Shown one piece after another: positions 15,866 to 33,339 of a stretch of DNA of 64,000 bases. The notes under the pieces were generated by a model. The model was not told the origin of the DNA, did not search any database, and was given only the letters and a program-made list of their open reading frames with translations. The translations under genes were made by a program, and so were the position numbers. How positions within the stretch are numbered: position 1 is the first letter of the stretch; the number at the start of each line of letters is the position of its first letter. Origin of the DNA: Roseovarius sp. (lineage in GTDB: Bacteria > Pseudomonadota > Alphaproteobacteria > Rhodobacterales > Rhodobacteraceae); assembly GCF_027019125.1 (NCBI RefSeq), contig NZ_JALUXE010000024.1:98590-162589 (forward strand), written 5' to 3'.

Positions 15866-18800
15866 TCAGGCTGCGACGCTGGCCTTGCTCTCGTCGCCCG
15901 AAGCCAGCGCGCTGACGGCAACAACCATGCCCACCTCGCCACCGGACAGGACGGCGATGCCACTCATGTCGCGCATCCCCGACAGCACGCCCTGCAAGGG
16001 GCGCAGCATCACAAGCTGCTGACCCAAGAGCTCGTCAACCGGAATGGCGATGCGCGTCTGATTGCTGCTGAGAACCACATAGAGCCGCGCGCCAGCGGGC
16101 ATGTCGGCCGGCTCTGGCAGCAACGGATGCACAGGCACAAGCGGGCCTTCGTCGATATGAAGCATCCGCGCGCCCCCAGAGGCCGCCACCGGCAAGAGCC
16201 GGTCGGTCTGAAGAATACGATGGATCGAATCCACCGGCAGCACATAGCGCACATGGCCCACCCGCACGACCATGCCATCAAGCACGATCATATGCTGCGG
16301 CACCCGCAGGTGGAATCGCACCCCGGCCCCGGCAGGAAGGCTGACACGGCGCAGCGCGCCCTTCTTGCGCGCCATCTCGTCGGCCAGCACGGCATAGGCC
16401 TCGGACACCGGAGCCTCGGGGCTGTTGTCGGTCAGCTCGACCCGCACGTGATCGCTTTCGGCCTCGACCGAGATATGAAACCGCGACGCCGGATATTCCC
16501 CGGAAAGCCGCAGATTTACCAGTGTCTTGAGCGGCCCGCGCAGTTCCTCGATCAACATCTGGTCGAGCATCACGTCGCCACCGACATAGGTGACAGAAGC
16601 ATCGACACCGATCTTGCGGGCCTGCGTGGCCACGTAGGCCTTGAGCGGGCGCAACAGCACTTCGGAAGGGCGCGACCGTTGCGCCACGCTTTCCTGTTGC
16701 AGATGCGACAACTCTGCCGAGAGCTGCGCCCCCGACTCGCTGATTTCCTGAAGCCGCATATTGTGCTGCTCCAGCCGGTCGCGCAGGACCGAGCGCACGC
16801 GCTGCTCCAATTCGCCCACCCCGGTGGCGCGCAGCGCCTCCATCACATCCTGCACCAGATCGACCGAAGCAAGCTGTGTCAACTCGTGCTCGAGCTGCGC
16901 GTGGCTGGCGGAAATGGCCCCCACCGCCTCGAGCAGCGCGAGGCTATCGCCGACATCCGACATCGGGATAAGATCAAGCGTGTCGGGCTCTGCCGCCCCG
17001 GCCTCGGGTGCTTCGCGCACCTTGAGAGCCTGCGCCATCATCAGCCGCGTGCCCGTCGTGTCCAGCATCGCCAGCCGCTCGACCATCCGGTCCTCTTCAA
17101 GGCTCGATGCCACGAGGAAATCAAACAGCGTGGCCTTGTCCAGGAACACCGTGACGTTGGTGATCATCCGCACGACGCCCGTGGTGATCCACTCAAGGAA
17201 GCCCTGCGCCAGCGCGTCATCGTCATTCAGATCGGCCCGCAGCACATAGAAATGCAGGCCCTCCTTGATCGCCTCATGGGCGGTCTTGACGCTCTCGGGC
17301 GACATCACCCGGTGGAATTCCGGGGGCAGGCCCAATCGGGATTCGATGCTCTTGGCGGTCATCACACCGCTGGCTACGAAACAGGCGTTGGTCGCCTCTT
17401 CGAACATCTTTTCAATCCGCGAGGTGTCAGGCGTATCCCCCTGATCCAGCGCATCGAACACCAGTTCCATCGTGTCGACAAAGCCGCGCCCCATTTGGAG
17501 CAGGATCACATCCGGGGCCTTTTGATCAACGCGCACCCGCGCGAAGAGGTCGATCAGCGCCATCGTCAGTTGCGAGGCCGTTTCGATCCGGTAATTCAGA
17601 CAGGCGAAATGCACCTGTCGCATCAAGGTGGAAAATGCCGGGAACCAGTTGGCACCGTCCTCGACGCTCCGCGCCTCCATTCCCTTGCGCAGGCTTTGCA
17701 GCGTCTCAAAGATATGGTCGACGCACCAGGCACCCAAGAGCTTGCTTGGGGGCATCATCTCGGCGTCGAACACCGACGCGGGCAAACTGCGCTCGACGCT
17801 GACCAATTCCTCGTACAACGCCAGTTCAGCAGCGCGATACGCATGGCCTGCCGGCTCTTGCGACAGTCTGTGGGCGCTGTCGACCAGCCGCACATATTCG
17901 CGCGGCGCGGCCAGATCGGCGATCCGCTCGGCAAGATCGCGGCGCTCTTCCATAGTGCAGGGCGTATCGCCCCCCATCCGCATGCCCTGGTCGGCAATCA
18001 GCGGGTAGAGCTCTGCGATAGCCTGGAAGAAAGCCCGTCCATCGGCGGCCGGATCAATCGGACCACGCGTCTGCGCCGGAGCGGCGTCCGCGTCGCCAAA
18101 TTCTTGCGCGGCACGCGCGCGCAGCTCTGCCACATGGTCCTTGGCTGCGGCATGGCTCATGCCCGTGGCCTCGGCCACCGGATCCAGCAGCGCAACCCAG
18201 CCGGTCAGATCAAGCTGCTGCGCGGCATAGCGCAGACCGTCGGCCTCCTTGCGCAGGGCGGCGAGGCTCGAGTCCTCTGACCAATTCGCGCAGAGCGCGT
18301 CCATCTTGTCGAGCGTCTTGAACACCATATCGGCAAAGATCTGGTGATAGGTCTGATCCGCCCGCAACTTGCCTTCCGCGACCTCGGCCGCGGGTTTGGG
18401 TCGCGCCGTGGTCTTCTTGACCGGCGCGGCTTTGGCTTCCACTTGGGGTTCTGGCGCAGGTTCAGGTTCTGCAACCGGCTCTGAGACCACATCGACGGCG
18501 GGCTCTGGCATCGGCTCTGGTTCGGGGGCGGGCTCTTCGGCAACCTCGGGCGCGGCGCTTTCCCCGCTCAACAGGCGGCGGATCGCGGCGCTCAGGTCGC
18601 GCGTTGCGGCGAGGTCCGGCGCATCTCCGCTCAGGACCGGCTCCAACAGGGCCAGCCAATCGGCGAGGTTCAGCTGTCCGGCGGCATAATGCAGGTTATC
18701 CGCCTGCCTGTGCGCGGCGCGCGGGCTGGTATCCTCGACCCACTCCGCAACCAACGCATCCAGCGCGGCGCAGGTCTTGTCGGCCATGTCGTTGAAAATC

Positions 18801-19624
18801 TTGTGATGTTCCGAGTCGGGGGCCAGGAGCTTGCCCTCTGTCACCTCGGCCACGGTCTTGACCTGCGGCGCAGGTTCCGGCTCTGGCTCTGGCTCTGCTT
18901 CGGCTTCGCTCTGCGGCGCTCCGTCCTCTTCGGCTTCCAGCTCAGCTTCGGGCTCTGGATCATCCTCGGGCTCGAATTCCGGCTCGTCATCGTCGCCTTC
19001 GAATTCGTCAAATTCCGCGCCGTCGCCTCCGTCCAGCTGATCCAGCAAACCCGCCAGCCCCATGTCAAAGACGGGGGCCTTGGCTTTGGGGGCCGATGCC
19101 GCTTCAGGTTCAGGTTCAGGTTCAGACTTGGGCGCAGCAGGCGCTTCGGCGGCCGCTTTCTGCGGCACCACATCGGGTTGCGGCTCTGCTGTGGGCGCAG
19201 GCTCTGCCGGTTCGGCTTCGGCCCCGGTCAAACGCCCGATCATCGTTCGCAAATCCTGCTTGAGCCCCGCTGTCGGGCCCGGCTCCACATCGGCGCGGGT
19301 GTCGGCGGTCTCTTCGAGCATGCCGCGCAACGCGTCGCCGGTGCGCATCAGGATATCGGTGATCTCGCCATTCAGCGGCACGCCTTCGTCGCGCACCAGA
19401 CCGATCAGATCCTCGGCCAAATGTGCCAGCCCCTCGACCTGCGCCAGTCCCAGCACGCGCGAGTTGCCCTTGAAGGTATGGACAGCCCGGAACAGCGCGC
19501 CGATATGCGCACCCATGTCGCCTTTGCCCCCTTCAAGGGCATCGAGCGCCGCTTCCATTGCGTCAAGGGACTGCGCGCCGTCATCGGCATACAGCATCCA
19601 GATTTCGTCCATCTCATCCATCAT
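15866..19624 (-). CDS. cheA3: CheA3-like protein: N-terminal Hpt (P1), long linker, degenerate P4 region and C-terminal CheW-like P5
   Basis: P1 motif LFRAVHTFKGNSRVLGL; C-terminal VRVGHVRYVLPVDSIHRILQ...AIPVDELLGQQLVMLRPL; catalytic N/G boxes not seen. Confidence 0.82.
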   Translation of the reverse strand: MMDEMDEIWMLYADDGAQSLDAMEAALDALEGGKGDMGAHIGALFRAVHTFKGNSRVLGLAQVEGLAHLAEDLIGLVRDEGVPLNGEITDILMRTGDALRGMLEETADTRADVEPGPTAGLKQDLRTMIGRLTGAEAEPAEPAPTAEPQPDVVPQKAAAEAPAAPKSEPEPEPEAASAPKAKAPVFDMGLAGLLDQLDGGDGAEFDEFEGDDDEPEFEPEDDPEPEAELEAEEDGAPQSEAEAEPEPEPEPAPQVKTVAEVTEGKLLAPDSEHHKIFNDMADKTCAALDALVAEWVEDTSPRAAHRQADNLHYAAGQLNLADWLALLEPVLSGDAPDLAATRDLSAAIRRLLSGESAAPEVAEEPAPEPEPMPEPAVDVVSEPVAEPEPAPEPQVEAKAAPVKKTTARPKPAAEVAEGKLRADQTYHQIFADMVFKTLDKMDALCANWSEDSSLAALRKEADGLRYAAQQLDLTGWVALLDPVAEATGMSHAAAKDHVAELRARAAQEFGDADAAPAQTRGPIDPAADGRAFFQAIAELYPLIADQGMRMGGDTPCTMEERRDLAERIADLAAPREYVRLVDSAHRLSQEPAGHAYRAAELALYEELVSVERSLPASVFDAEMMPPSKLLGAWCVDHIFETLQSLRKGMEARSVEDGANWFPAFSTLMRQVHFACLNYRIETASQLTMALIDLFARVRVDQKAPDVILLQMGRGFVDTMELVFDALDQGDTPDTSRIEKMFEEATNACFVASGVMTAKSIESRLGLPPEFHRVMSPESVKTAHEAIKEGLHFYVLRADLNDDDALAQGFLEWITTGVVRMITNVTVFLDKATLFDFLVASSLEEDRMVERLAMLDTTGTRLMMAQALKVREAPEAGAAEPDTLDLIPMSDVGDSLALLEAVGAISASHAQLEHELTQLASVDLVQDVMEALRATGVGELEQRVRSVLRDRLEQHNMRLQEISESGAQLSAELSHLQQESVAQRSRPSEVLLRPLKAYVATQARKIGVDASVTYVGGDVMLDQMLIEELRGPLKTLVNLRLSGEYPASRFHISVEAESDHVRVELTDNSPEAPVSEAYAVLADEMARKKGALRRVSLPAGAGVRFHLRVPQHMIVLDGMVVRVGHVRYVLPVDSIHRILQTDRLLPVAASGGARMLHIDEGPLVPVHPLLPEPADMPAGARLYVVLSSNQTRIAIPVDELLGQQLVMLRPLQGVLSGMRDMSGIAVLSGGEVGMVVAVSALASGDESKASVAA

Positions 19625-19658: not shown

Positions 19659-20063
19659 TCAGGCCCCGACCAGTGCCCGCATCACGCGCGTCAACTCGTC
19701 TCCGGTCTTTTCCTCGAGGTCATGCGACACTGTGCCGGAGGGCTTGGAAACCACCCCATCCGCACCCAGTTCGCGCGCCTTTGCCGCCAGGGGAGATCCC
19801 TGCACCGTCACCGAGGACAGCATACAGATCTTGGCCCGCGTCTTGAGCTTGGCGTGACGCAGAAACTCAAGCCCGTCCATCACCGGCATCTCGATATCGA
19901 GCAGGATCAGGTCGAGGTCGGGCAGGTCCGGAAGCTTGTCCAGCGCCTCTTGTCCGTTGGCGGCCTGCGCCACGAGCTTGAAGTCTTTACGCGACTTGAG
20001 AAAACTGGAGATGTAGAGCCGCATCATCGCGGCATCGTCCACCACCATTACATTATAAGGCAT
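19659..20063 (-). CDS. cheY: Chemotaxis response regulator CheY-like
   Basis: VMVVDDAAMMR, LILLDIEMPVMDGLEFL, MLSSVTV, GADGVVSKPSG. Confidence 0.88.
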   Translation of the reverse strand: MPYNVMVVDDAAMMRLYISSFLKSRKDFKLVAQAANGQEALDKLPDLPDLDLILLDIEMPVMDGLEFLRHAKLKTRAKICMLSSVTVQGSPLAAKARELGADGVVSKPSGTVSHDLEEKTGDELTRVMRALVGA

Positions 20064-27715: not shown

Positions 27716-28042
27716 ATGAGCCTGACCGGCATCTCCTCTTCTGTCAGCATGATGCACGCCTCGCAGGCGGCAGCACGCCCTGACCCCATCCAGCGCCCGA
27801 CCGCAATGGCCGACGCACAGGGGCCGGGCTTTGCCGAACGGCTGGGCAAGGCAGTTGAGAACGTGAATACCCAACAAGGCAAGGCCGCACAGGCCGCCCG
27901 CGACTTCGAGACCGGGCGCACCGAGAACCTTGCCGCCGTGATGGTCGAGCAACAGGTCGCCTCGCTTGGGTTCCAGATGACGATGCAGGTCCGCAACAAG
28001 GCGCTCACCGCCTATCGCGACATCATGAACATGCCGGTCTGA
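27716..28042 (+). CDS. fliE: Flagellar hook-basal body complex protein FliE
   Basis: NLAAVMVEQQVASLGFQMTMQVRNKALTAYRDIMNMPV. Confidence 0.92.
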   Translation: MSLTGISSSVSMMHASQAAARPDPIQRPTAMADAQGPGFAERLGKAVENVNTQQGKAAQAARDFETGRTENLAAVMVEQQVASLGFQMTMQVRNKALTAYRDIMNMPV

Positions 28043-28073
28043 GCCTCAGACGAGAACCACGGAAGTAGAGAAC

Positions 28074-29768
28074 ATGGACGGATCGCAAACCACTCTCCCG
28101 GCACAAGCTGGCGCCACGTCGCTCGTACAGCGCGCGCGCCTTGCGCTCTCGGGCATGGATGGGTTCATGGCCCAGCCGGCCCTGCGCCGCGCCCTGCCGG
28201 CGATTGGCGTGCTGCTGGTCGTGACGCTCGGGCTGGCGGCATGGCTGTTGCTGGCCCCTGCCGACCGCGTGACCCTGCATGCAGGTCTGCCCGAGGCCGA
28301 GAAATCCCGTGCTCTCGACGCGCTGACCGCCGCCGGTATGGACGCGCAGCTAGACCCGTCGTCCGGCGCGCTGACCGTGGCTGCAGACCAGTTTCACAGC
28401 GCCCGGATGCTTCTGGCCACTCAGGGCCTGCCCGCAGGGGCAACCGACGGCATGTCGGCAATTGACGAGATGCCCATGGGCACATCGCGCCAGATCGAAT
28501 CCGCCCGCCTGCGCCGGATGCAGGAACTGGACCTTGCCCGCTCCATCCAGGAATTGCGCCCGGTGCGCGCTGCCCGCGTGCATCTGGCCTTGCCGGAACG
28601 CAGCGCCTTTGTCCGCGACAGCCAGCCGCCCCGTGCCTCCGTGTTCCTGGAACTCGCGCCCGGCATGACCCTCGATCAGGCGCAGGTTCGCGCAATCGTC
28701 AGCCTCGTTTCCGCCGCCGTGCCCGATATGCCGCGCGGCAATGTCTCGGTCGTGGACCAGACAGGCACGCTCCTGACCAGCCCCGAAGAAGACCCGGTGC
28801 AGGCCGAGGCCGACCGCCAGATGCAGCATCAGCGCAGACTCGAAGCTGTCTACCGCGATCGGGTGCTGGCACTCCTGACGCCCATCGTGGGCGCAGGCAA
28901 TGCCGCCGTTGAAGTGACGCTGGATATGGATTTCACCCGGTCCGAGATCACCAGCGAGGAATACCTGCCCGACACCGCCCTGCGCAGCGAGCAGAGCAGC
29001 AGCCAACAAACCAGCGGCGCACAGGTCGGCGGCATTCCCGGCGCCGTCTCCAACACGCCCCCCAACGAGGCGCAGATGGCCGACGCCGCCTCAAAAGCGG
29101 CCAAGAGCGGCACCACGAACAGCGCCACCTCCTCGACCCGCAATTACGAGGTTAGCCGCCGGGTGGAAACCCGCCAGCCCCAGACCGCCCAGATCAACCG
29201 CGTGCATGCCGCCGTGCTCTTGCACCGCCTGCCCACGCCCGAAACCCCCGCCGACGGCGATGCCGCGCCTGCCCCCGAGGCCGTGCCGCTCGCGGAAATC
29301 GAGGCATTGACCCGCTCCGCCATCGGCTTTGACGAGGCACGCGGCGACCTTGTCACCGTGGCCAGCGCGCCCTTTGTCGTGGCCCCCTCCCTCATTCCCG
29401 CAGAACGCTGGTATGATGCGGCCTGGCTTCCCACCCTGGGGCGCACACTGGCGCAACTCGCCCTCTTTGGCATCATCGTGCTGGGTGTCGTGCGCCCGAT
29501 CCTCAATCGCCTTCTGCCACCTGTCGGGGCCACCACTGCCACCACCGGCATGACCTTTGGCGACGCCATCGAAGTGCCCCGCGGCGAGAGCCTGTCCGCC
29601 CTGCGCCAGCGCCTCGAGACCGCGGCCCCCAATGCCGATGACCTCAACGGGGCCATCACCTACGAGGAAAAGATCGACCTTCTGCGCCAGATGGCAGGGG
29701 CCGAGACCAACCGTATCGCGGGCGTCTTCAAGTCCATGATCGCCCCCACCGGTGAGGACCGTCCATGA
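28074..29768 (+). CDS. fliF: Flagellar MS-ring protein
   Basis: Two TM segments; RRMQELDLARSIQELRPVRAARVHLALPERSAFVRD; YEVSRRVE. Confidence 0.95.
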   Translation: MDGSQTTLPAQAGATSLVQRARLALSGMDGFMAQPALRRALPAIGVLLVVTLGLAAWLLLAPADRVTLHAGLPEAEKSRALDALTAAGMDAQLDPSSGALTVAADQFHSARMLLATQGLPAGATDGMSAIDEMPMGTSRQIESARLRRMQELDLARSIQELRPVRAARVHLALPERSAFVRDSQPPRASVFLELAPGMTLDQAQVRAIVSLVSAAVPDMPRGNVSVVDQTGTLLTSPEEDPVQAEADRQMQHQRRLEAVYRDRVLALLTPIVGAGNAAVEVTLDMDFTRSEITSEEYLPDTALRSEQSSSQQTSGAQVGGIPGAVSNTPPNEAQMADAASKAAKSGTTNSATSSTRNYEVSRRVETRQPQTAQINRVHAAVLLHRLPTPETPADGDAAPAPEAVPLAEIEALTRSAIGFDEARGDLVTVASAPFVVAPSLIPAERWYDAAWLPTLGRTLAQLALFGIIVLGVVRPILNRLLPPVGATTATTGMTFGDAIEVPRGESLSALRQRLETAAPNADDLNGAITYEEKIDLLRQMAGAETNRIAGVFKSMIAPTGEDRP

Positions 29769-30802
29769 CCCTCGCGTTGCCTGCCCCTGCCGGAGCCAGT
29801 CCCGGCGCTGACCTGACCCCGGTGCAAAAGGCCGCCATCCTGATGATGGTCTTTGGAGAAGAGACCGCCGCGCAGATCCTGCGCGCCCTCTCCCCCTCCG
29901 AGGTTCAGGTGCTCGGCGAGGCCATGTTCACCGTGCAAGGTGTCGATCACGACACGGTCGACGCGGTGCTCAACGAATTTCTGGGACTGGTCAGCAATCA
30001 GACCGGCATCGGCATCGGTGCTGGCAATTATGTCCGCCAGGTGCTCGATCAGGCGCTTGGCGCGCACAAGGCGCAATCGGTGCTCTCGCGCATCGTGCCC
30101 ACCAACAGCGAACGCCCGATTGAAATCCTCGACTGGATGGACCCATCTGCCGTGGCCGAACTGATCCAGGACGAGCATCCGCAGATCATGGCGCTGGTCA
30201 TCGCCTCGCTCGACTATGCCCAGGGGGCCGAGGTGCTCAAACTCCTGCAGCCCGAGGCACAGCCCGAAATCATCCGCCGTATCGCCACGCTCAACACCGT
30301 GCAACCCGAGGCGCTGCGCGACCTCGAAGAGGTGATGCGCGCCAAGTTCAAGGCCAACACCACCCTGCGCGCCTCGCAGATCGGCGGGGTCAAGGCTGCC
30401 GCCCGGATCATGAACTTCACCCGTCAGGATATGGAAGAGCGGATCATGAAGGACATTCGCAAGGATGACAAAACGCTCTCCGAGGATATCCAGGACAATC
30501 TTTTCGTGTTCGATTACCTCATCAAATCCGACGAGCGCGCCCTGCAGACCGTGCTGCGCGAAATCGACACCGAGGTTCTTGTTCTCGCTCTCAAGGGTGC
30601 CAATCCCGCCCTGCGCGACAAGCTCTTGGGCTGTGTTTCGGCCCGCGCCGCCGCCAATATCATGGACGAGATGGAGGCCATGGGCCCGGTGCGTCTGAGC
30701 CAGGTGCAAGAGGCCCAGAAGCAGGTCATCACCGTCGCCCGCCGCCTGTCTGACGAGGGCAAGATAACGCTCGCCGGACGCGGCGGCGAAAAGATGGTCT
30801 GA
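29765..30802 (+). CDS. fliG: Flagellar motor switch protein FliG
   Basis: VQKAAILMMVFGEE, EHPQIMALVIASL, DDKTLSEDIQDNLFVFDYL; 4-nt overlap with fliF. Confidence 0.96.
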   Translation: MTLALPAPAGASPGADLTPVQKAAILMMVFGEETAAQILRALSPSEVQVLGEAMFTVQGVDHDTVDAVLNEFLGLVSNQTGIGIGAGNYVRQVLDQALGAHKAQSVLSRIVPTNSERPIEILDWMDPSAVAELIQDEHPQIMALVIASLDYAQGAEVLKLLQPEAQPEIIRRIATLNTVQPEALRDLEEVMRAKFKANTTLRASQIGGVKAAARIMNFTRQDMEERIMKDIRKDDKTLSEDIQDNLFVFDYLIKSDERALQTVLREIDTEVLVLALKGANPALRDKLLGCVSARAAANIMDEMEAMGPVRLSQVQEAQKQVITVARRLSDEGKITLAGRGGEKMV

Positions 30803-30806
30803 GACC

Positions 30807-31595
30807 ATGACCGCGATGCCCGCCCCTGACCTCCCCCCCGAGACCGGCGCACTGACGCCTGAGGATCTGCTGGCCCTCGTGCGCCGCTCATCGCAGCAAT
30901 TCCAGCGCCGCCAGCCCGCAACACCAGAGGCACAGGCAGAAAGCGGCTTTGCCCCGCAGACCGTGGTGCGCCCCCTGCGCACGCAGCCGCCAGAGCCCGA
31001 ACCCGCGCCCGTCGATACAGCGTCCGAACCCACCGCCGCCACCTTTACCCCCGCACCGCCACCGCCCACTTTGGACATCGAGGCAGAGCGCCGCGTCGCC
31101 TGGGCCGAGGGCCACGCCGCCGCGATGCAGGAGATCGAGGCCGCCTGCGCCAAAGCGCGCGCCGAGGCTCTGGAGGAGGCCCGCGCCACCGCGGCACAAG
31201 ACATCGCCGAGGCGCGCGACGCCTTTACCGCCGCCGTCACCCGCCTCACCAGCGCTGAAAACGAGCGTCTCGCGGATCTGACCGCCAAGCTGGAGCTCGC
31301 CGTGCGCCACTTGGCCACCCAGCGCGCCGGGCAGAAGATTGACGAGGCCCCCCGTCCCTTTCTGCGCCGGATCGAAAAGATCACCCATCAGATTGCCGCC
31401 GGGGCCGAAGGGACCGTCGTGCTGATGAACCCGGCGGACCTCATTGCAATCAAACCCCATATCAAGGATTTCAGCCCGCTGGCCAAAGGCCGCCTGTCGC
31501 CCGACACCACGCTGGGGCGCGGCGATATGCGCCTGCGCATGGACGAGATCACCTTTTCCGACGTGATCGCCGAACGCGACGGGGGGCTGGCATGA
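30807..31595 (+). CDS. fliH: Flagellar export apparatus protein FliH
   Basis: Pro-rich N-terminus, AWAEGHAAAMQEIEAACAKARAEALEEARA coiled coil; position between fliG and fliI. Confidence 0.75.
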   Translation: MTAMPAPDLPPETGALTPEDLLALVRRSSQQFQRRQPATPEAQAESGFAPQTVVRPLRTQPPEPEPAPVDTASEPTAATFTPAPPPPTLDIEAERRVAWAEGHAAAMQEIEAACAKARAEALEEARATAAQDIAEARDAFTAAVTRLTSAENERLADLTAKLELAVRHLATQRAGQKIDEAPRPFLRRIEKITHQIAAGAEGTVVLMNPADLIAIKPHIKDFSPLAKGRLSPDTTLGRGDMRLRMDEITFSDVIAERDGGLA

Positions 31596-32926
31596 CCGAT
31601 CTGCTCGCGCGTCTGGCCCAAGTCACCGAAACCATGACCGAGGTGCCACCCCCCGGCTATTCGGGTCAGGTGCTGCGCTACGATGGTCTCATCCTCGAAT
31701 GTGCGGGCTTTCCCGCCAGCCCCGGCACCCGCTGCCGGATCGACACCGAGGATGGCAAGGGTGCCACGGGTGAAATCGTGGGCTTTGCCAATGGCCGCAA
31801 TCTGCTCTTTCTCGACCAGCCCGGCGCGCGTATCACCCATGGCTGCATGGTGCATAAGCTGCGCGGCGGGCATAACGCCGCCATGGGCGACGCCCTCTTG
31901 GGCCGCGTGCTCGATGCCGAAGGCGTGCCGCTCGACGGCTTTGGCCCGCCCGATTGCCCCGACACCCGACCGCTCTCGGGGCGCGAACAAAACCCGCTCG
32001 CGCGGCAACCGGTCGATGCCCCCCTTGATGTAGGCGTGCGCGTGATCAACGCGGCCCTCACCGTGGGGCGCGGTCAGCGCGTGGGCATCATCGCAGGCTC
32101 TGGCGTGGGCAAATCCGTTCTGATCGAGATGATGACCCGCTATACCTCTGCCGATGTGATCGTCGTCGGGCTGATCGGCGAACGCGCCCGCGAAGTGGGC
32201 GATTTCGTCTCCAAGGTGATGACCGGCGAGAACCGTGCCAAGACCTGCGTCGTGGCCGTGCCCGCCGACCGCTCGCCGCTCCTGCGCCTGCGCGCGGCGC
32301 ATCGCGCCACCGCGATTGCCGAATATTTCCGCGATCAGGGCAAACAGGTCATGCTGATCATGGACAGCCTTACCCGCGTGGCCCATGCCCGCCGCGAAAT
32401 CGGTCTGGCGCTTGGCGAACAACCCACCGCCAAGGGCTATACGCCGTCGGTCATCTCGATGATCCCCGGGCTGATCGAGCGTGCCGGTCCCGGCCTGCCC
32501 GGTCAGGGCAGCATCACCGCATTCTATACCATTCTGGCCGATGGCGACGACACCACCAATGACCCCGTGGTCGACACCGCCCGCGCCATTCTCGACGGGC
32601 ATTTCGTGCTCTCGCGCAATCAGGCGCAGATGGGCATCTATCCGGCCATCGACCTTACCCAATCGGTGAGCCGTGTGATGAAGGACATCGCCGAGAAACC
32701 CCACCACGCAGCCGCGCTGCGCCTGCGCCGCCTCATTGCCCTTTACATGGAGAACCGTGACATGATGCTGATGGGTGCCTATTCCCCCGGTCAGGACGCT
32801 ACGCTTGACGAGGCCGTTGCCCTCTGGCCCCGGATCGAGAACTTCATCCGGCAGGACATCCACGAACCCGCCAGCCTCGAGGACAGTATCAGCGCCCTTT
32901 GCGCCCTGACAGGGGGTGCCGCATGA
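31592..32926 (+). CDS. fliI: Flagellum-specific ATPase FliI
   Basis: GIIAGSGVGKSVLIEMM, VGLIGERAREV, VMLIMDSLTRVAHARREIGLALGE. Confidence 0.97.
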   Translation: MTDLLARLAQVTETMTEVPPPGYSGQVLRYDGLILECAGFPASPGTRCRIDTEDGKGATGEIVGFANGRNLLFLDQPGARITHGCMVHKLRGGHNAAMGDALLGRVLDAEGVPLDGFGPPDCPDTRPLSGREQNPLARQPVDAPLDVGVRVINAALTVGRGQRVGIIAGSGVGKSVLIEMMTRYTSADVIVVGLIGERAREVGDFVSKVMTGENRAKTCVVAVPADRSPLLRLRAAHRATAIAEYFRDQGKQVMLIMDSLTRVAHARREIGLALGEQPTAKGYTPSVISMIPGLIERAGPGLPGQGSITAFYTILADGDDTTNDPVVDTARAILDGHFVLSRNQAQMGIYPAIDLTQSVSRVMKDIAEKPHHAAALRLRRLIALYMENRDMMLMGAYSPGQDATLDEAVALWPRIENFIRQDIHEPASLEDSISALCALTGGAA

Positions 32927-33339
32927 GCGCGCGTCAGCACCGCCTCCTGACCTTGATGGCGCGGCAGGAAAACCGCGATCTTGGACATCTCTCGATCCAG
33001 CTAGGCCACCTGCGCCAGCAGGAAATGCAGCAGTTCGACATCGCCGACCGTCTGGGCCAGATGCTCGACCAGACCGCTACCCTCTCGACCCAGCCGATGA
33101 CCCCAGGCCAGCTCAGCACCGCGCATTTCATGGGTCGCACCTTGGTGCAACAGCTCGAGGCGACGCGCAGCCAGATTGCCCGCACACGTCAGGAACGCAC
33201 CGCCGTGGAACAGGACCTCTCGCAGCACCAGCGTCGCCAGCAGATCCTGCAAGAGCGCGCCGACCTCTGCCGCCGCGCCCTGCATCTGGCCCGCGCCGAG
33301 GCCGAGGACAACGCCACCCAGCCCCGCCGCACGCGTTAA
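32923..33339 (+). CDS. fliJ: FliJ-like flagellar export chaperone
   Basis: 138-aa coiled-coil ORF, ATGA overlap with fliI. Confidence 0.6.
   Translation: MSARQHRLLTLMARQENRDLGHLSIQLGHLRQQEMQQFDIADRLGQMLDQTATLSTQPMTPGQLSTAHFMGRTLVQQLEATRSQIARTRQERTAVEQDLSQHQRRQQILQERADLCRRALHLARAEAEDNATQPRRTR

Follow-up and report, generated by a model that had tools for sequence, protein, structure and literature searches.

Tandem-duplicated, putatively degenerate Hpt modules in the linker region of a Roseovarius CheA3 ortholog

The role of His-less Hpt domains has been posed as an open question (PMC10542144), and the locus analyzed here raises it in a concrete form. A minus-strand reading frame (15866-19624) within a 64,000-nucleotide stretch of Roseovarius sp. 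DNA (hereafter, the window) encodes a CheA3-like protein whose linker region carries a module of about 95 aa twice in tandem. The original prediction was that these are probably degenerate Hpt domains that could serve as inhibitory, docking or phosphatase-related elements. We asked what this module is, how it varies among CheA3 orthologs, and which of these roles its sequence and predicted fold would best agree with.

Judging from sequence, the product of this reading frame is an ortholog of Rhodobacter (Cereibacter) sphaeroides CheA3, in line with the CheA3-like identity proposed for it, because its P1 matches the R. sphaeroides domain (3kyi), a P5 is present, and both the neighboring CheY6 and the operon order agree. 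The protein begins with a P1 containing the phospho-His and ends with a P5 (Table 1), and the operon, in which cheY6 is the next gene upstream of cheA3, also encodes a P1-less CheA4. The order cheA4-cheR-cheB-cheW-mcp-cheY6-cheA3, then fliS, is identical at the orthologous loci of 14 genomes, with no fliS within the stretch examined for L070. The CheY6 proteins of the orthologs are 82-90% identical to that of the window, and the CheY6 contact helix AAMMRLY is retained in all orthologs examined. Near relatives with names are Roseovarius mucosus and Donghicola species, and another genome (L061) would appear to be R. sphaeroides or a very close relative, because its P1 differs from 3kyi at just two positions of the aligned stretch.

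Table 1. Features of the cheA3 locus in the window; residues are those of CheA3.
Feature	Position	Strand	Basis
CheA3 ortholog, 1252 aa	15866..19624	-	P1 best PDB match R. sphaeroides CheA3P1 3kyi, E 4.5e-47
P1, true Hpt, phospho-His in VHTFKG, residues 1-133	19226..19624	-	Pfam Hpt 1.3e-10
Linker 1, acidic, disordered-looking, residues 134-256, net charge ~-35	18857..19225	-	Composition
Short conserved element FDMGLAGLLDQLDGGDGAEFDEFEGDDD in linker 1, residues 186-213	18986..19069	-	Motif search of linkers vs shuffles
Putative degenerate Hpt module copy 1, residues 257-352	18569..18856	-	Repeat alignment, module profile
Pro/Glu-rich linker 2, residues 353-409	18398..18568	-	Composition
Putative degenerate Hpt module copy 2, residues 410-507	18104..18397	-	AlphaFold2 four helices, mean pLDDT 80; Foldseek top matches Hpt
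Five-helix bundle, residues 522-613	17786..18061	-	AlphaFold2 helices 21-109 of second model; weak Hpt similarity
Hpt3 (second degenerate Hpt type, putative), residues 626-751	17372..17749	-	P1-domain profile match, pairwise E 5e-5 to 1.3e-4; helical bundle
P2-like alpha/beta domain, residues 757-868	17021..17356	-	Alternating helix/strand in AlphaFold2 model; P2 call from PMC10542144
P3-like (dimerization) helical hairpin, residues 891-985	16670..16954	-	Profile match 4xiv, 9.5e-9; AlphaFold2 long helices
Putative degenerate P4 (ATPase-like), residues 986-1108	16301..16669	-	Profile match to CheA P3-P4; Foldseek CheA P4
P5 (CheW-like), residues 1110-1245	15890..16297	-	Pfam CheW 1.8e-10
CheY6 ortholog	19659..20063	-	PDB 3kyj_B CheY6, E 2e-67
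CheA4 ortholog, P3-P4-P5, without P1	24542..25753	-	Pfam H-kinase_dim, HATPase_c, CheW

The distribution of CheA3 orthologs is patchy: 7 of 180 genomes of the family (sampled by genera) encode one, within the genus to which the window belongs not every species has it, and a search of a plasmid collection returned no full CheA3 ortholog. For most of the genomes that carry CheA3 and were searched, the distance between fliM and the che operon is no more than about 20 kb. The only FliM match in the genome of the window and in R. mucosus sits on a different contig (C27 of G000 for the former), and fliM was not seen among the larger ORFs past fliI at ~32.9 kb (window region 28000-33000). Pfam matches to TonB_N, PARP and docking families were rejected as marginal or as low-complexity Pro/Glu sequence.

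The repeat itself is well supported. Both copies lie where they had been placed, starting at residues 260 (base 18847) and 414 (base 18385), so that the span previously given for the pair (18095-18848) is correct. Their alignment spans about 90 residues and needs a single gap; its Smith-Waterman score is 196, whereas 2000 shuffles reached 67 at most. Between the copies, Pro (14), Glu (12) and Ala (11) account for most of the 57 residues of linker 2, which is indeed the acidic Pro/Glu-rich spacer that had been described. A module profile, seeded with copies from three close relatives and iterated over 20 full-length CheA3 orthologs, recognized exactly two places in the genome of the window, corresponding to copies 1 and 2, and hhalign revealed no further copies in CheA3 residues 515-1105. 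The motif ADxLxYAAxQLxL holds for the two copies of the window, and the consensus over all copies collected is L-x-[HYF]-A-A-x-Q-[ML]-x-[LF]-x-x-W.

The module was found in 20 of 20 full-length CheA3 orthologs, for 32 copies altogether, and its number ranges from one to three. A single copy, a point absent from the original prediction, is the usual state, being found in 12 of the 20 orthologs, including the R. sphaeroides-like L061; two copies are seen in the window, L002, L003 and L058 (Roseovarius and one further genus), and three in L073, L074, L083 and L084, all from another genus. In a tree of the modules, the three copies of genus g102 cluster together (support 98/99), as do the two copies of Roseovarius (83/76) and those of L058 (81/82). 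Such clustering suggests that the module expanded more than once, a reading that stays no more than suggestive given how short the alignment is and how long the branches are. Across the 180 genomes of the family, the profile matched CheA3 genes only, plus two marginal sequences (E ~5e-4; L094 and L095), the former being located C-terminally in a sulfatase-like protein and judged a chance match.

As for the fold, AlphaFold2 run on the 32 copies returned four helices (15-37, 43-61, 65-75 and 82-100) with a mean pLDDT of 80 and a core near 90. When this model was compared to the PDB with Foldseek, the best four matches were all Hpt domains (a fungal HPt and the E. coli YojN HPt among them) with probabilities of 0.96-0.98, and CheA P1 ranked seventh, with E-values of 0.3-0.8 and TM-scores of 0.54-0.60; none of these matches is individually significant, the best E-value being 0.31. 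The four-helix bundle expected of an Hpt domain was thus obtained in the model, with fold matches that point to Hpt though each is weak. Alignment of the module to 30 CheA P1 domains with hhalign gave an E-value of ~0.002 and set the P1 phospho-His column on the Asp of the "ADxL" motif; shuffled-column controls gave E-values of 0.74-0.8 when run the same way and 0.2-0.75 when query and target were reversed. The hhalign probability, however, was only 6-12%. No module scored above the gathering cut-off of the Pfam Hpt family (PF01627), which matched 2 of 32 copies at all (best E 0.022), and a PDB sequence search with the module gave no significant match. 

The positions that are kept and lost in this register are informative. 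Counting from the phospho-His as position 0, all 30 P1 domains have His there and none of the 32 modules does, its place being taken by D, G, S, E, A or K; Lys at +3 is seen in 30/30 P1 domains versus 2/32 modules, and Gly at +4 in 29/30 versus 0/32. At this last position all 32 modules carry His, Tyr or Phe, and the His seen in 18 of them is, on sequence, not a conserved phospho-acceptor, because other copies have Tyr or Phe there. Leu at +2, Ala or a small residue at +5 and +6, Leu or Met at +9 and often Gly at +10 are retained, Gln is present at +8 in 30 of the 32 copies (both L058 copies have Arg instead), and five columns are invariant in the 32 copies, which come from several genera. The alignment therefore reads as a fold without chemistry, in which the HxxKG positions are gone and those for helix packing are kept. 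Taken together, several weak lines (predicted fold, P1 register, kept and lost positions), along with the HHpred result published for R. sphaeroides, support a degenerate Hpt as the best reading of the module. Each of these lines is weak when taken singly. The original prediction is upheld in part, for the degenerate Hpt and for the CheA3 identity, and its phosphatase reading is disfavored.

By sequence comparison, no folded part of CheA3 is less conserved or evolves faster than the module. When distant orthologs are compared, identity is ~22-33% for the module, against 40-62% for Hpt3, 50-62% for the P2-like domain and 63-72% for P1, and the five-helix bundle at residues 522-613 (23-39%) is the sole domain comparably divergent. 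Among close relatives, dN/dS values of 0.15-0.25 for the modules and 0.03-0.14 for the other domains, based on noisy dS estimates, indicate that the modules are under purifying selection, although looser than that on most other domains.

The remainder of the region is predicted to be richer than a linker. A second AlphaFold2 model, covering CheA3 residues 505-1108 with 21 orthologs, shows two helical bundles, the first with five helices, an alpha/beta domain, a long hairpin of helices and a fold resembling that of an ATPase. What the original prediction treated as linker would also hold a third Hpt-like domain (Hpt3), a domain resembling P2 and a P3-P4 pair that is dead, all missed there and in agreement with what was published for R. 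sphaeroides (PMC10542144). Hpt3 shows the motif [HFY]HAC-x-[HY]-Y in most orthologs and is far better conserved than the tandem modules; of the two types it is the stronger candidate for a non-phosphorylated Hpt that still has a function. The P2-like domain is the most conserved part of the linker. A profile of residues 505-1108 matched CheA P3-P4 structures with E-values down to 9.5e-9, and Foldseek agrees at ~1e-6. Unlike in the older accounts of CheA3, in which this region was without P3 and P4 (PMC3591291) or was described as a novel phosphatase region (PMC2817712), the dead P3-P4 pair (16301-16954, minus strand) is visible by sequence profile. Linker 1 is unalignable outside its short element, in which an amphipathic stretch, FDMGLAGLLDQLDGGD in the window and MDLGNLFDELGDS, MDMSALFDEMSDD or SVADILDLLDDS in orthologs, is followed by an acidic-aromatic stretch in most Roseobacter-type orthologs. 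The best common 13-mer, from the acidic-aromatic part, scored 190 versus a shuffled maximum of 158, and the hydrophobic spacing of the first part is similar to that of FliM N-termini from the same genomes (EVAALVDGLLD). The element was not seen in L071, L072, L075 and L085.

Which role would such a module have? Phosphatase activity has been assigned to the 794 aa that lie between P1 and P5 in R. sphaeroides CheA3 (PMC2817712, citing Porter 2008), and the module could be all or part of this CheY6-P phosphatase if the conserved Gln on the old phospho-face were used as an amide in the manner of CheZ or of histidine kinase phosphatases. The retention of at least one module by every ortholog and the Gln at +8 in 30/32 copies are in favor of this possibility. 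Both L058 copies, however, carry Arg at that position, the Gln has no invariant acidic partner nearby (position 0 being D, G, S, E, A or K) and no invariant acid/amide catalytic pair exists across the 32 copies; moreover, among the folded parts of the protein the module has diverged most, with the P2-like domain and Hpt3 far better kept, and Pfam recognized no CheZ-, CheC- or CheX-type phosphatase domain in it. We consider this explanation improbable, and the module is probably not the CheY6-P phosphatase active site, because its copy number varies, its evolution is the fastest and an invariant catalytic pair is missing. That the Hpt resemblance arose by chance in an unrelated four-helix module appears distinctly improbable as well. 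Such a reading could draw on the weak Foldseek E-values and on the sequence searches that fell short of Pfam and PDB significance, but Hpt domains take 4 of the 4 top fold matches, hhalign independently gives the correct motif register, and HHpred probabilities of 96-97% were reported for the extra Hpts of R. sphaeroides CheA3 (PMC10542144).

A stronger contender, even if still rather unlikely, is that the modules are a pure structural spacer, or a relic of an ancestral multi-Hpt CheA, retained solely for tether length. The variation from one to three copies and the differing lengths of the flanking Pro/Glu/Ala-rich linkers would fit such a scenario, as would the fact that CheAs with several Hpts, some of them His-less, are common, and loss of function is favored by Berry et al. 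(PMC10542144). The dN/dS values and the five invariant columns, on the other hand, argue that at least the fold is maintained. Fast divergence and a changing number of copies, next to CheY6 proteins 82-90% identical to that of the window, are not what one would expect of a conserved enzyme active site, and we favor a non-catalytic docking or tether bead as the most likely role of the module, and hold this explanation to be probable rather than firm. According to this model, the two copies are tandem duplicates of a putative Hpt-fold domain that would be unable to carry phosphate by the Hpt mechanism, and they would sit on a tether, flexible and acidic, that links the working P1 to the C-terminal, array-bound half of CheA3. 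Each bead may use its old Hpt surface to dock CheY6 or CheA4 P4 as a partner, or may instead set tether length and local concentration, and the CheY6-P phosphatase site would then probably lie in the conserved Hpt3/P2-like/P3-P4-like part (residues ~620-1108). The contacts of CheA3 P1 with CheY6 are published (PMC2817712), and a mapping of the conserved residues of module helix 1 to those that form the CheY6 Met13 pocket of P1 (I11, L14 and Y15) was considered and is not claimed, because a register shift of one residue would move the conserved hydrophobics into the core. A long shot would be that the acidic tether is a multivalent capture arm for CheY6-P, made of one to three dead Hpts and the FliM-like amphipathic element at residues 186-213. 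If true, this arm would hold CheY6-P near the conserved phosphatase half, and copy number would tune signal termination.

Domains with an Hpt fold and no phospho-His are known from other systems. Plant pseudo-HPts such as AHP6 have an Hpt fold without the phospho-His and act as non-catalytic modulators; unlike the CheA3 module, AHP6 is a free-standing plant protein. Pseudomonas aeruginosa ChpA, like CheA3, holds such domains inside a CheA (PMC10542144); unlike ChpA, CheA3 lacks a C-terminal receiver and has a dead kinase domain, and P1 alone keeps the His in the window protein. The closest case is R. sphaeroides CheA3 itself, a P1/P5 split kinase with CheY6-P phosphatase activity and an orthologous protein with the same operon and the partners CheY6 and CheA4, in which Berry et al. 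(2023) already reported two extra His-less Hpts, a P2, a P3 and a non-functional P4 (PMC10542144; also PMC10782961). The text of PMC10542144 gives no coordinates, and either of its two extra Hpts may be the module. Unlike the R. sphaeroides-like CheA3 (L061), which carries one copy, the window protein has two in tandem, and that of another genus three.

His-less Hpts in CheA3 were thus already published for one species, and what is added here is the tandem duplication, the series of one to three copies and the consensus signature of the module. In the literature, as far as we found, the CheA3 phosphatase site is mapped no finer than the 794-aa region, and the domain borders within that region are now concrete enough to be used for truncation experiments. 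Orthologs with one to three copies, in the same operon and next to a CheY6 82-90% identical to that of the window, in fact represent a natural experiment on the role of His-less Hpt domains.
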